DNA from: Pseudomonadota bacterium
Lineage (GTDB): Bacteria; SZUA-182; DTGQ01
Length of the DNA: 35,427 nt
NCBI GenBank assembly: GCA_030625085.1
Contig: DAOURK010000033.1
Coordinates: 1 to 35,427 of the forward strand
Direction: 5' to 3'
A model generated the notes under the pieces. That model worked only from the letters and a program-made list of their open reading frames with translations. It had not been told where the DNA came from and did not search any database. Positions 27,000 through 31,886 of the stretch are shown here, piece after piece (positions within the stretch are counted from its first letter, which is position 1; the number at the start of each line of letters is the position of its first letter). The translations under genes and the position numbers were made by a program.

Positions 27000-27150
27000 G
27001 GGTTACTTCCTTTAAAAATTTTTGGTGATTGAAGCTCCCCGAGATTAATGCCCCAGGGAGTGAATTTGAGTTAATACCCTCTGAAAGTAGAAAAAAATTC
27101 ATTAAAAAAAAGAACGTCATAATGGCAGTTTTAGTGAACATTTCCCTCAT
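26956..27150 (-). CDS. Possible small hydrophobic protein overlapping the integrase stop
   Basis: The ATG at 27148-27150 overlaps the recombinase stop codon (TAATG), an arrangement typical of translational coupling. The 64-codon frame starts MREMFTKTAIMTFFFLMNFF with one hydrophobic segment. It overlaps the start of the next small gene (26811-26999) in another frame and has no ribosome binding site of its own. Doubtful. Confidence 0.25.
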   Translation of the reverse strand: MREMFTKTAIMTFFFLMNFFLLSEGINSNSLPGALISGSFNHQKFLKEVTHGYVKEGKDYIGAE

Positions 27151-28127
27151 TACAAACAAGCAGCCGATGCCACCATCTGAGCAATTGCTTCGGCCCGATC
27201 TTCCCTGCAATCATCATAGACCAGCACAGTTCCTACTGACCGGTGCCTGCTGTATTTCATGACTGAGTGCACATCACCTGATGTCAGATTTAGCGCTTCG
27301 CTTATGCTGGAATGTCTGAGCTTATGAGGGGCAACCCGGATACCGCATTTTTTACCTAATGCCCTGATTATCGAATAGAAGCCATTAGCACATAGCCGAC
27401 CATCTCCTTTTTTAGCAGGATCAAGATTGATGAATAACTGCCCTGGCTCCTCTCCCCGGATCTTTATCCATGCCGAAAGCGCTGATTTGCTTTCTAATGG
27501 AAGAGTAAGAGAATTTTTCTGTACCCGGCCTTTCCCCTTAACAGCTAAACTTCCGGCCTCAAAGTCTACATCCTCAACATTAAGGGCACGCACCTCCCCA
27601 CGTCTTAGTGACATATCATATAAGCGATGGAGTAAAGCCGTGTCACGAATAGTCTTAGGCCTTTTCCTCTCAGTTTTAGCTGCCTCAAGCAAGGTCTTGT
27701 ATCCGGATTTTCCACATCCTTTAGTATCCCTGTAAGGCTCCGCCTTCATATTCTGAATTTCCAAAGAAAAAGAGACAAGGCCTAAGGTCCTGGCCAATTT
27801 GACCAGGGAGCGCAAAGCTGCAAGCCGCCGGTTGATTATGCCAGGTGCAAGGCCTTGCTCTATAAGGTGGGTCTTATACTTCAGAGCAAGTGCATTTGCA
27901 AATCCATGGCCATGACTGAGCAGAACCTTTGCCGCATCGTTCAGGGGCTCAACCTCTGTATTGCCGCTCAAGAATGAGCAGAAATTTTTTAAATCCTCCG
28001 AATAGGCCGCAATGGTCAGTTGGTTCCGCCCACTGAGGAACGAATCAATAAGGCTTTGGTGGGTGGGGTTAAATATTGTTGGTAATGATGGGGCGGGTAA
28101 TGCGAGTGAATTGGTGGGAGTAAACAT
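27150..28127 (-). CDS. Tyrosine recombinase/integrase
   Basis: 325 residues. The N-terminal SAM-like DNA-binding part (about 20-115) includes RNQLTIAAYSEDLKNFCSFL. The catalytic domain has the full set: Arg175 (MSLRRGEV), Lys198 (VKGKGR), His268-x-x-Arg271 (PHKLRHSS), His295 (YSRHRSVG) and nucleophile Tyr304 (VLVYDD). It is integrase-sized and shares its strand with the HTH genes on either side. It probably mobilises the segment beginning at the tRNA-Asp gene, though only one border is visible. Confidence 0.92.
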   Translation of the reverse strand: MFTPTNSLALPAPSLPTIFNPTHQSLIDSFLSGRNQLTIAAYSEDLKNFCSFLSGNTEVEPLNDAAKVLLSHGHGFANALALKYKTHLIEQGLAPGIINRRLAALRSLVKLARTLGLVSFSLEIQNMKAEPYRDTKGCGKSGYKTLLEAAKTERKRPKTIRDTALLHRLYDMSLRRGEVRALNVEDVDFEAGSLAVKGKGRVQKNSLTLPLESKSALSAWIKIRGEEPGQLFINLDPAKKGDGRLCANGFYSIIRALGKKCGIRVAPHKLRHSSISEALNLTSGDVHSVMKYSRHRSVGTVLVYDDCREDRAEAIAQMVASAACL

Positions 28128-28261: not shown

Positions 28262-28429
28262 TTATTCACCTTTTAAGTATTTATCTATTTCTTCCTGAAG
28301 TAACCGATAACAACGGCCTATCTTATTAGCCTTTAATTTTCCCTCTTTGATCATTTTAATAAGCGTTTGTTTCGAAACCTGTAAATATTTCGCAGCCTGT
28401 TCTGTAGTTAATACCTTTTTTTCTGCCAT
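28262..28429 (-). CDS. Small HTH_17/excisionase-family DNA-binding protein
   Basis: A 55-codon gene, easily overlooked because of its size. MAEKKVLTTEQAAKYLQVSK, then QTLIKMIKEGKLKANKIG and YRLLQEEIDKYLK: a complete excisionase-type helix-turn-helix (TIGR01764-like). It lies 135 bases upstream of the recombinase on the same strand. With the protein at 26521 it gives two such proteins around one integrase; one may be the directionality factor and the other a repressor. Confidence 0.8.
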   Translation of the reverse strand: MAEKKVLTTEQAAKYLQVSKQTLIKMIKEGKLKANKIGRCYRLLQEEIDKYLKGE

Positions 28430-28615
28430 TGTTATTTAATGCCTCTTGCCTATCACGTCACAATTTAGTTACGCGAGTCTAACAGTCTGAATTAATAAAC
28501 ATTTTTCTTCATTTCTGTGTGCCTGATTGTGCCAAATTCTTGGTACCGCCCTCTCATGAATACCCTAAAAATCGTCATATCCTTTAATTTGTAGTTCCAT
28601 TTATCCGCCAGATAT

Positions 28616-28658
28616 GGCATAATTAGGTATAGTTTTTAAAAATATACCTAATTATGCC
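28616..28658. promoter_or_regulatory. Perfect 16-bp inverted repeat upstream of orfA
   Basis: GGCATAATTAGGTATA (28616-28631), an 11-base AT spacer, then TATACCTAATTATGCC (28643-28658). It ends 13 bases before the ATG at 28672, overlapping the likely promoter/5' UTR. It fits an operator for the encoded winged-helix protein or a folded end of the mobile element. Confidence 0.75.
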
Positions 28659-28671
28659 AAGGCGGTGACAA

Positions 28672-29316
28672 ATGCCAGACCTTAAGTTCCAAAAATTGTT
28701 TCAACGCAGGCTTGTAATGGACATTCAAACGATTCAAAAGTTATGCAAAGATCGCTCAAGGCGTAGCTTGTTTCGTGATATGACCAAGCTTGGATACCTT
28801 AGTAGCTACAGCCACGCTGGGAAATTTTATACGCTAAGAACAATTCCGAATTTTGATCAGCATGGTCTATGGCATTATGAGGGGATATCATTTTCGAAGC
28901 ATGATACCTTGAAATCGACGATACAAATGCTCGTAAGTGAGTCATCTGCTGGTCTCACTCATAAGGAGCTTAGGAAATTATTACACGTGCGAGTACAAAA
29001 CACCTTAAATGACTTGCTCAGTGCCCATGCTATCACAAGAGAATCTGTTGAAAATCTATATTTATATTTAAGCTCCGACCGAAAAATCTCATCAGTACAG
29101 GTAGCACATCGTCGAAAACAGTTTGAGGATACTCGCGGGATTTGCCCTCTTGATCCCAATACGGTTATCGAAGTGTTACTCGAGTTGCTATGCTCAGAAG
29201 ATTGGCAAACAAAAGCAATATGTGAACGGTTAAAGGTAAGGGATATCATAATTTCTGAGATTCAAGTCAAAAATATTTTTTCCCGTTACAAGATAAAAAA
29301 AAAGACATCCATATAA
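28672..29316 (+). CDS. OrfA: winged-helix-like DNA-binding protein of a transposase-like element
   Basis: 214 residues. Predicted helix-turn-helix stretches include TIQKLCKDRSRRSLFRDMTK followed by LGYLSSYSHAGKFYTL (winged-helix-like), GLTHKELRKLLHVRVQNTLN and QTKAICERLKVRDIIISEIQ, giving two or three HTH units. No catalytic motif. It ends YKIKKKTSI across a run of nine As (29295-29303). Shifting to -1 at the heptamer A AAA AAG continues smoothly into the next, longer frame, so this may be the N-terminal part of a fused transposase and also a stand-alone regulator. Confidence 0.65.
   Translation: MPDLKFQKLFQRRLVMDIQTIQKLCKDRSRRSLFRDMTKLGYLSSYSHAGKFYTLRTIPNFDQHGLWHYEGISFSKHDTLKSTIQMLVSESSAGLTHKELRKLLHVRVQNTLNDLLSAHAITRESVENLYLYLSSDRKISSVQVAHRRKQFEDTRGICPLDPNTVIEVLLELLCSEDWQTKAICERLKVRDIIISEIQVKNIFSRYKIKKKTSI
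29298..29304 (+). other. Candidate -1 ribosomal frameshift site (A AAA AAG)
   Basis: The heptamer is phased correctly on orfA (AAA AAG codons at 29299 and 29302), as in dnaX and many IS3-family elements. After a -1 shift reading continues GAC ATC CAT and on through KVIRSELSQLEARYREKIRG into orfB without a stop. A homopolymer length error that splits one gene is the alternative. Confidence 0.6.
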
Positions 29317-29345
29317 TTAAGGTTATCAGATCGGAACTATCGCAA

Positions 29346-31229
29346 TTGGAAGCAAGGTATCGAGAAAAAATACGGGGCATGCGGTTGGTGCCAATCACAG
29401 TATCACCAAAAATATCAACATGTTCTAAATGTTTCAAGGAGATGAAGGTTCAAAAAACCTATCCAAGATCCCTCATTACGAAAAAATATGGAAACATCCG
29501 TGCACGAATTAAAATACTGACATGTAAACATGGATGCAAAAATCCGGATCGGTCGCCTGTTACACGCCGTCCTGAAATAATATCTCTAATTGTCCCAAAG
29601 GGTGGGAGTATCGGCTATGATGTCGAGGTTCATGTTGATATTCAACGATACCTTAATCATCGACAAAGAGAAGAGATACAGAAAAAATTACAGAAAAATC
29701 ATGATATTGAGATATCAACAGGAAAGATATCAGATTTGTCACGTAGTTTTTTAAAGCATTTTAAACTACTTCATGAAAGTAGAAGTGAGCACTTAAGAAA
29801 GGCTTTAGAGCAAGATGGTGGATACCCTCTAAATGTTGATGCAACTGGGGAATATGGGGCCGGGACTTTATTTGTGGCCATTGCCGGTTGGCGCAAATGG
29901 GTGTTGGGGGCGTGGCGACTCACAACCGAATGTGCCAATCAGATTAGTCCCTGCCTGGAAGAAATAAAAAACAGGTTTGGTGTGCCACTTGCTATTACAC
30001 GCGATTATGGCCGTGCACTTATTCCGTCAGTGCAGGAGTTTGTCGATAGCGTTGAAGAAGACGTTCGGATTCTAGGGTGCCACCAACATTTTTGCGGAAT
30101 TGTTGGTAAAGAGTTGATGAAACACTCATACGATGAATTGGCATGTCTTCTGCGCAAATATGGATTCAAAACGCCCCTCGGATCTATAGTGAGGGAATGG
30201 GGTAAACGCCCTGGTGTTCAAGGCAGTGAGGCAAGAGATGACATTGAAAAATGGAGCGCACAAATGACAGCACATGAGATACCCGGTGGACCGAAAGGTA
30301 TAGCAATTTTGCGATCAAACGTGCAATGGGCATTGGATATTTCGGCCGAAACTAAAAATTTGAGATTCCCATTTGTGCTCCCTCACCTTACCTTTTATGA
30401 CCGTTGTAAAATTCTAAGGCGTGCATGCGATGCTTATCTTAAGAGTCTACCTGATGATGTATATGTTAATCGATCCTTAAAGCGACTTGCTAAAATATTA
30501 GATCCGATTATCATAGACAAAAAATTTTGCGATGTCACAAAAATACTCCGAACAACAAAATGTTTGTTCGATGAGTTACGTGCAGCCATGCGCATTAATC
30601 CAAAAATGTCCGGAGCAAAATCCCCCCCTCCTAAATCTCAGAAAAAACAGGTCGCTGAACTAAATGACATTAAACAAACTCTGGAGGATTTCAAAGCATC
30701 TCTTCCCGGACGACGATCAAAACGTGTCTTTGGGCAAGATATGACAGACGCAATCGACACTATTCTTAAATATCTCAAACGTCATGGAGAATCATTGTGG
30801 GGTCATGTAGTGCAACTACCAAAGGAAGTTGGTGGTGGCATCCGACTAATAGAACGTACGAATAATGATGCAGAAGGGTTCTTTAATGTTTATAAGCAAG
30901 GGGAGCGACGACGAAGTGGTAGGAAAGTACTATCACACGATTTGGAATCTACTCCCCCGGAAAGCACTTTGGTTAGCAATATGAAAGATCCTAGCTATAT
31001 TCAAATTCTTTGCGGATCCATTGAAAAACTCCCGGAAGCATTTGCCAAACTTGATAAAAAAAAGGAATCAAGATCAAATAGGAATACACTTGATAAACAA
31101 AAGGCCAAGATCGAAACGGCATCGCTTTCTCGATCGGATAAAATTTTTGTTAGGAACTCTTTTCTGGGCGGAAAATTTTTAGGCGTAGCAGCCAGTTGCG
31201 CACGTAGGGTCGCTCCAATACAAATTTAG
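29346..31229 (+). CDS. OrfB: zinc-ribbon DDE transposase-like protein
   Basis: 627 residues from a TTG at 29346, but the frame is open upstream to the A-run and reads as coding (VIRSELSQLEARYREKIRGM), so it is probably translated by frameshift from orfA into about 850 residues. There is no ATG or ribosome binding site at its head. A zinc-ribbon-like start has CSKC (26-29) and CKHGC (60-64). An RNase-H-like core is suggested by LNVDATGEYGAG (Asp165), ITRDYGRAL (Asp220) and LIERTNNDAEGFFN with Glu510 (or Glu503), the ERTNN..E pattern being typical of DDE transposases, followed by basic KQGERRRSGRK. The exact IS family is not recognised. Confidence 0.65.
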   Translation: MEARYREKIRGMRLVPITVSPKISTCSKCFKEMKVQKTYPRSLITKKYGNIRARIKILTCKHGCKNPDRSPVTRRPEIISLIVPKGGSIGYDVEVHVDIQRYLNHRQREEIQKKLQKNHDIEISTGKISDLSRSFLKHFKLLHESRSEHLRKALEQDGGYPLNVDATGEYGAGTLFVAIAGWRKWVLGAWRLTTECANQISPCLEEIKNRFGVPLAITRDYGRALIPSVQEFVDSVEEDVRILGCHQHFCGIVGKELMKHSYDELACLLRKYGFKTPLGSIVREWGKRPGVQGSEARDDIEKWSAQMTAHEIPGGPKGIAILRSNVQWALDISAETKNLRFPFVLPHLTFYDRCKILRRACDAYLKSLPDDVYVNRSLKRLAKILDPIIIDKKFCDVTKILRTTKCLFDELRAAMRINPKMSGAKSPPPKSQKKQVAELNDIKQTLEDFKASLPGRRSKRVFGQDMTDAIDTILKYLKRHGESLWGHVVQLPKEVGGGIRLIERTNNDAEGFFNVYKQGERRRSGRKVLSHDLESTPPESTLVSNMKDPSYIQILCGSIEKLPEAFAKLDKKKESRSNRNTLDKQKAKIETASLSRSDKIFVRNSFLGGKFLGVAASCARRVAPIQI

Positions 31230-31309
31230 CAGTCTCAACCACATACTGACGTTATAGAAATTATGGCTACAATAAATAACGAAAAGAAGAAAATTTTTTG
31301 TGCGGAAAA

Positions 31310-31344
31310 TAGGATAATCATTTAAAAATCATGTAATTATCCTA
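31310..31344. promoter_or_regulatory. Inverted repeat upstream of the ORF6N gene
   Basis: TAGGATAAT (31310-31318) and ATTATCCTA (31336-31344) form a dyad with a 17-base AT-rich spacer, 32 bases before the ATG at 31377. Possible operator of that gene or right end of the preceding element. Confidence 0.5.
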
Positions 31345-31376: not shown

Positions 31377-31886
31377 ATGGACCCAAAATTAATACTACAA
31401 GAGACAATCCAGCGTAAAATTTTTACCCTTAGGGGGAAAAGAGTGATGCTTGACCGAGACATAGCAGTACTTTATGGTGTGGAGACCAGGGTAATAAATC
31501 AGGCAGTGAGAAGGAATAAGGCAAGATTCCCGGATGATTTTATGTTTCAGCTTACAAAGGAAGATATTAAAATTCTAAGATCACAAATTGTGATCTTAAA
31601 AGAAAATCAACATCTTAAATATATGCCTTATGCTTTTACTGAACATGGAATTCTCATGCTTTCGAGCGTCCTTAATAGCGAAAGGGCTATACAGGCAAAT
31701 ATTCAAATTATGCGTGCTTTCACTAAAATGCGAGAAATGTTGCTAAGCTATCGTGATTTAAAAGAGAAAATTGAAAATATGGAACAAAAATATGATTATC
31801 AATTTAAGGCAGTATTTGAAGCCATCCAGCAACTATTGGAGCCGCCGGATAAACCTCAAAGTAAAATAGGGTTTCAGAAGGAGTGA
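31377..31886 (+). CDS. ORF6N (KilA-N-type) domain protein
   Basis: 169 residues. The ORF6N signature is complete: RKIFTLRGKRVMLDRDIAVL, YGVETRVINQAVRRNKARFP, DDFMFQLTKED, then LRSQ and YMPYAFTEHGILMLSSVLNS. The C-terminal 50 residues form a coiled-coil-like stretch (DLKEKIENMEQKYDYQFKAV). This family is common in phages and mobile islands and is thought to bind DNA. It is a stand-alone gene here, preceded by an inverted repeat. Confidence 0.88.
   Translation: MDPKLILQETIQRKIFTLRGKRVMLDRDIAVLYGVETRVINQAVRRNKARFPDDFMFQLTKEDIKILRSQIVILKENQHLKYMPYAFTEHGILMLSSVLNSERAIQANIQIMRAFTKMREMLLSYRDLKEKIENMEQKYDYQFKAVFEAIQQLLEPPDKPQSKIGFQKE

Follow-up and report, generated by a model that had tools for sequence, protein, structure and literature searches.

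A probable insertion sequence of the Mutator superfamily whose transposase is split at a conserved candidate −1 slip site

The window, the whole stretch of 35,427 nucleotides analysed here, makes up one entire contig of a draft genome of 4.94 Mb, in a phylum represented by nine genomes. It carries what is, with high probability, an intact-looking insertion sequence (IS) of the Mutator superfamily, in which a −1 slip at an A-run would make the fusion protein OrfAB and in which OrfA would act as a repressor. The parts of the element are as follows.

28450..31257, plus strand: whole insertion sequence, 2808 bp, from an end-pairing search of both flanks
28450..28471, plus strand: left terminal inverted repeat CTATCACGTCACAATTTAGTTA, 16/22 identical to the right repeat
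28615..28659, no strand: palindrome TGGCATAATTAGGTATAGTTTT-t-AAAAATATACCTAATTATGCCA, proposed operator, adjoining the orfA ribosome-binding site upstream
28672-29316, plus strand: orfA, 214 aa, with its stop 3 codons past the slip site
29295-29304, plus strand: candidate slip site A9-G, assigned from sequence, phase and conservation
29304-31229, plus strand: orfB, −1 frame, ~641 aa after the slip, in a frame open from 29259
29838..29840, plus strand: proposed catalytic D1, D180 (NVDATGE), a nearly invariant column in model strand 176-183
30003..30005, plus strand: proposed catalytic D2, D235 (ITRDYG), a nearly invariant column right after strand 231-234
30078..30089, plus strand: CxxH motif C260-H263 downstream of D2, C260 nearly invariant and H263 invariant
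30873..30875, plus strand: proposed catalytic E, E525 (RTNNDAE), with E525 and RTNN invariant
31236..31257, minus strand: right terminal inverted repeat, read inward CTATAACGTCAGTATGTGGTTG, from end-pairing and pattern occurrence

The original prediction had orfA and orfB in different frames, with a correctly phased A AAA AAG between them, and the coordinates bear out both points. The open stretch of the orfB frame runs over 29259-31229 (656 codons), −1 relative to orfA, and the zero-frame codons at the junction are ATA AAA AAA AAG ACA TCC ATA TAA. Two heptamers are in phase for a −1 shift, A_AAA_AAA at 29295-29301 and A_AAA_AAG at 29298-29304. After the slip the codons would be GAC ATC CAT ATA ATT AAG GTT ATC AGA..., giving DIHIIKVIRSELSQLEARYREKIRG, which matches the sequence through which the −1 frame had been predicted to continue into orfB, and the junction-spanning peptide of the fusion product would cover ...YKIKKKDIHIIK.

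The same arrangement recurs across a large and divergent set of homologs. A first scan of genome contigs with the window protein alone gave no match; a scan of the GTDB genomes with a three-sequence alignment gave 80 homologous loci, with 24-55% identity among these relatives. Their hosts include Thermodesulfobacteriota (Desulfobacterota), Planctomycetota, Bacteroidota, Pseudomonadota, Chloroflexota, Verrucomicrobiota, Rokubacteria, archaea and others, and a few relatives, mostly truncated by contig ends, are in the source genome and in one genome of the same family. Sixty-two junctions, the window included, have an in-phase heptamer of at least six A's (A_AAA_AAA-A in 56, A_AAA_AAA-G in 3, A_AAA_AAG in 2 and A_AAA_AAC in 1), all of them for −1, with the zero-frame stop 3-36 nt downstream. 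Because this count demanded the heptamer as a criterion, the loci that failed it were inspected separately and individually. L041 and L055 have a T_AAA_AAA heptamer, also for −1, bringing the −1 junctions to 64, and L070, L093 and L105 show the same junction arrangement; the others lack one side of the junction or have one without a clear assignment. Of 65 junctions, 64 share this direction, and the sole one needing +1 rather than −1 is that of L065 (A9 run at 2050). At its slip site L049 carries 7 A's where its near-identical sisters from Delta proteobacterium NaphS2 (L051, L062, L095 and L061) carry 8, and it is either unreadable by the usual −1 shift or the product of a sequencing error.

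Homologs with both parts in one frame and no A-run, which would speak against the predicted split, were looked for, and no true single-frame fusion was found among the loci examined. About 15 homologs that had been candidates for such fusions were rejected, since their orfA occupies its usual frame, the slip site is present, and their −1 frame merely happens to lack stops. The split is far beyond chance, and the recurrence of the same −1 split at an in-phase A-run across homologs argues for a conserved recoding site and not an assembly error. No prominent RNA structure was found 3' of the slip site, where z averages −0.21 across 58 loci and is +0.9 for the window, and no prominent ribosome-binding-like sequence 5' of it.

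From these sequences we infer that slippage occurs, with a minority of ribosomes shifting, and that it is ribosomal rather than transcriptional. In the same element, RNA polymerase could instead be what slips on the A-run and joins the frames (transcriptional realignment), which we judge fairly unlikely. Nine A's are present in 17 of the 62 runs and ten in one, and runs of A8-A9 permit polymerase slippage; in the study cited, run length correlates with slippage, with frameshifting of 10%, 40% and 63% for 7, 9 and 11 A's (PMC3711429). The +1 junction of L065 fits transcriptional slippage or an indel, and the lack of any RNA stimulator seen at the slip site also points this way. However, the heptamer is held in ribosomal phase and 64 of the 65 junctions go the same way, which favours ribosomal frameshifting, constant direction being a criterion for ribosomal over transcriptional recoding (PMC3711429). 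Four of the 62 runs have just 6-7 A's, including A_AAA_AAG and A_AAA_AAC, and these too favour the ribosome. At an A9 run, ribosome and RNA polymerase slippage may both contribute.

It is improbable that orfB is instead translated independently, with no frameshift, from TTG 29346 or ATG 29379 (27 codons in). These in-frame start codons are present in the window, and the prediction that orfB has no ATG of its own is right for the segment before the zinc ribbon and wrong for the frame overall. However, initiation within orfB would not require the −1 overlap and the A-run that are conserved family-wide, and its product would lack the N-terminal DNA-binding part. That the window element is a decayed or misassembled single-frame gene is very improbable, and for the family as a whole already refuted: the window copy has no target duplication and indels in the A-run do occur (the seven A's of L049 versus eight, in one of five NaphS2 copies), but dozens of independent genomes, spread over many phyla, share the same split, none of the loci examined turned out to be a true fusion, and both frames are otherwise intact.

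One clade shows a further feature of the overlapping frames. In a sister clade with 100/100 support and 14 rows, the −1 frame lacks stop codons throughout orfA and for ~60 codons before it in 12 members (L048, L075, L080, L083, L084, L085, L086, L088, L090/L092, L098, L103 and L109); the exceptions are L089 and the truncated L047, and the window element has no open −1 frame either (17 stops versus 16.8 expected). For the 11 open members with full-length orfA, synonymous shuffling gives 5-11 expected stops versus 0 observed (p <= 0.001 each). Stop numbers in this clade are ordinary in the +1 frame of orfA, as they are in the −1 frame of orfB in most open members, with L109 a clear exception and a few others mildly low. 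We considered the open frame as a conserved overlapping gene and rejected this, because its identity is not above that of the +1 frame and orfA and orfB diverge equally fast at third codon positions. We suggest tentatively, and with considerable doubt, that the −1 frame in 12 of 14 members is selected to be stop-free and is translated, its openness being kept while its content is free. If true, OrfB would get a long, sequence-tolerant N-terminal extension without a frameshift, and the overlapping frame would be selected for openness rather than content. The stop-free frame is an unusual signature that bears on the upkeep of overlapping frames lacking conserved content.

The predicted structures of the two proteins fit the roles proposed for them. 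OrfA was aligned across 52 sequences; its model (mean pLDDT 93.7) has winged-helix-like domains and a C-terminal helix-turn-helix, and its top structural matches include winged-helix SelB and MarR-type regulators at E ~1e-3 or weaker; model and matches support the earlier description of orfA as winged-helix. OrfB was aligned across 53 sequences, the source of the column conservation given above; its model (mean pLDDT 85.5) consists, in order, of a helix, a zinc-ribbon-like region and an RNase-H DDE core interrupted by a large helical insertion, and its best solved structural matches are two ISCth4 transposase entries (E 6.4e-06 and 1.8e-05). The window protein itself is above no cut-off in Pfam, NCBIfam or PHROGs; its relatives L051 and L044 pass Pfam Transposase_mut with 32.4 and 25.2 bits versus a cut-off of 21. 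The comparison with transposase models is positive in Pfam for these two relatives and negative for the window protein, and the assignment of orfB as a D-D-E-like transposase is upheld by the fold together with Transposase_mut in the two relatives. Plasmid, phage and viral collections gave no match with the window or L002-type protein, and distant partial matches only with L051 and L103, one of them annotated as an ISNCY family transposase.

The palindrome had been noticed as standing in front of the element; it is real, with 22-nt arms (28615-28636 and 28638-28659) and one mismatch, but it is internal and does not mark the element's end. Its score is 19, with shuffles reaching at most 11, and it lies ~165 bp inside the left end, with 12 bp between it and the start codon of orfA. 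We rejected it as the left end because multi-copy relatives place the ends further out. At the same place, an inverted repeat beats all 60 shuffles in 40 of 57 loci, a set that includes the window and two orfA-only relatives, and much of the family shares the half-site consensus TGATAAAGTAT(ATG), with the right arm just before the ribosome-binding site. An apparent lack of the palindrome in the open-frame clade was discarded, as the distance had been measured from the wrong start codon. The natural reading of this site is as an operator that OrfA would bind.

The ends of the element also differ from those first proposed. An extent of 28616-31344 had been given, and the actual one is 28450-31257: 28616 belongs to the internal palindrome, and 31344 to another palindrome before the next gene. 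CTATNACGTCANNATNTNGTT is present exactly twice in the window, on opposite strands and at both ends (0.02 expected, for a pattern chosen post hoc). Since the end score of the window element is equalled by 5 of 300 shuffles, the end assignment leans also on relatives, whose 8-bp duplications fix their ends and whose length and CTAT ends the window element matches. Elements of the group are ~2.65-2.95 kb in size with ~22-bp inverted repeats, 5'-CTAT...GGTTG, and the nearer relatives L030, L031 and L032 have GCGTCA at the same place in their ends. Five near-identical NaphS2 copies, with the ends CTATGGCCGAAAATAACGGTTG ... CAACCGTTATTTTCGGCCATAG, each have a different perfect 8-bp duplication (ggtttttc, tttgtttc, gattttat, gctatcca and cattttcc), and a systematic search found perfect 8-bp target duplications at about a dozen further loci. 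The predicted multiple copies and target duplications are therefore found in the relatives, which are multi-copy and have inverted repeats, but not in the window copy, which is flanked by cctcttgc and aaattatg with no target duplication and is single-copy in its genome at its divergence. For both reasons the window copy may be old or inactive, and we regard its continued mobility as conjectural.

Several other observations concern the source genome and the surroundings of the element. L027 (G002:C342) is an orfA relative without a visible orfB and looks like a relic, and L011 (G000:C80, 1-400) is a decayed 3' relic of the window's subfamily, whose right end, CATACCGATTTTGCCGCTATAG, is common to the L007 copy in G002. 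The orfA relatives L028 (G000:C116) and L029 (G000:C201) are cut by contig ends, which suggests that the draft genome contains more collapsed copies. The element sits directly upstream of a small excisionase-like HTH gene (about 28263-28430, minus strand) whose start is ~20 bp from the element's left end; a tyrosine recombinase gene (Phage_integrase, E 1.8e-20) is at 27150-28127 on the minus strand. The second palindrome, 31311-31343 (AGGATAAT...ATTATCCT), is outside the element, shortly before an ORF6N-domain gene at 31377-31886 (Pfam E 2.2e-36), and is probably that gene's own control site.

In the mechanism that we propose, transcription would begin upstream of orfA near the palindrome, itself probably bound by OrfA. 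Most ribosomes would make OrfA, a winged-helix DNA-binding protein, and end at the stop three codons past the A-run, while a minority would slip one base back on A_AAA_AAG/A_AAA_AAA and enter orfB. The resulting OrfAB, of ~850 residues, would have a winged-helix DNA-binding part, a zinc-ribbon-like region and an RNase-H DDE core with helical insertion; it would bind the 22-bp ends, cut them and insert the element elsewhere, generating an 8-bp duplication. On its own, OrfA would act as a repressor of the promoter and may compete for the ends, so that the slip rate would set the frequency of transposition. Three points lend themselves to direct testing: the ratio of OrfA to OrfAB, the operator, and the target duplication of 8 bp.

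These elements appear to form an IS group of the Mutator/IS256 superfamily that is unnamed in the family models and literature searched, with ISfinder outside the comparison; no description of the group was found in that literature. The Mutator superfamily would gain a widespread group with large split transposases, a winged-helix OrfA, and conserved slip and operator-like sites. Gene callers tend to split such transposases in two and leave both parts unnamed.

Guerillot et al. 2014 defined five prokaryotic Mutator-like families, whose traits are terminal repeats of 18-39 bp that end in C, target duplications of 8-9 bp, a helical insert of 99-138 aa and a CxxH motif, given as C/D-x2-H 11-19 residues after D2 (PMC3942029). 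In the present group the DDE triad sits in an RNase-H fold, and an alpha-helical insertion separates D2 from E; the 290 residues from D2 to E far exceed the length reported for the insert (PMC3942029). C260-x2-H263 follows D2 at a spacing of 24 residues (~20 in L002), slightly over the range given there (PMC3942029). Relatives have CTAT... ends and perfect 8-bp duplications; the window has the ends and no duplication. Among the curated NCBIfam models, IS256 (cut-off 150 bits) gave no match with the window and 16-41 bits with relatives (best 40.7), ISH6 (240 bits) reached at best 36.1 bits, in L051, and IS66 (180 bits) gave 14.2 bits with the window and at best 31.2 with L031.

The known families can be set beside this group as follows. 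IS256 (p-MULT 1), which includes ISCth4, has a similar RNase-H DDE core with helical insertion, a CxxH after D2, 8-9 bp target duplications and terminal repeats beginning with C, but its transposase is one open frame of ~400 residues, whereas here OrfA plus OrfB come to ~850. ISH6 (p-MULT 2) shares the Mutator-like core and a sub-threshold similarity in L051, but misses the curated cut-off, and the consulted part of the family description mentions no split transposase for it (PMC3942029). The ISMich2 group (p-MULT 4, ISKra4-like) is likewise a Mutator-superfamily IS, with its transposase spread over two ORFs and a −1 frameshift that is conserved (PMC3942029). Two ORFs joined in this way are found here as well, a feature also present in unrelated IS families, and the ISKra4-type NCBIfam model gave no match at E up to 1; this comparison covers the family models and the published description. 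ISMich2 elements are much shorter, ~1.3 kb. IS3/IS1/IS911-type elements are an unrelated transposase family with other ends and another target duplication, but they too have an OrfA DNA-binding regulator and an OrfAB transposase made by −1 frameshift at A-rich heptamers (PMC4066793).
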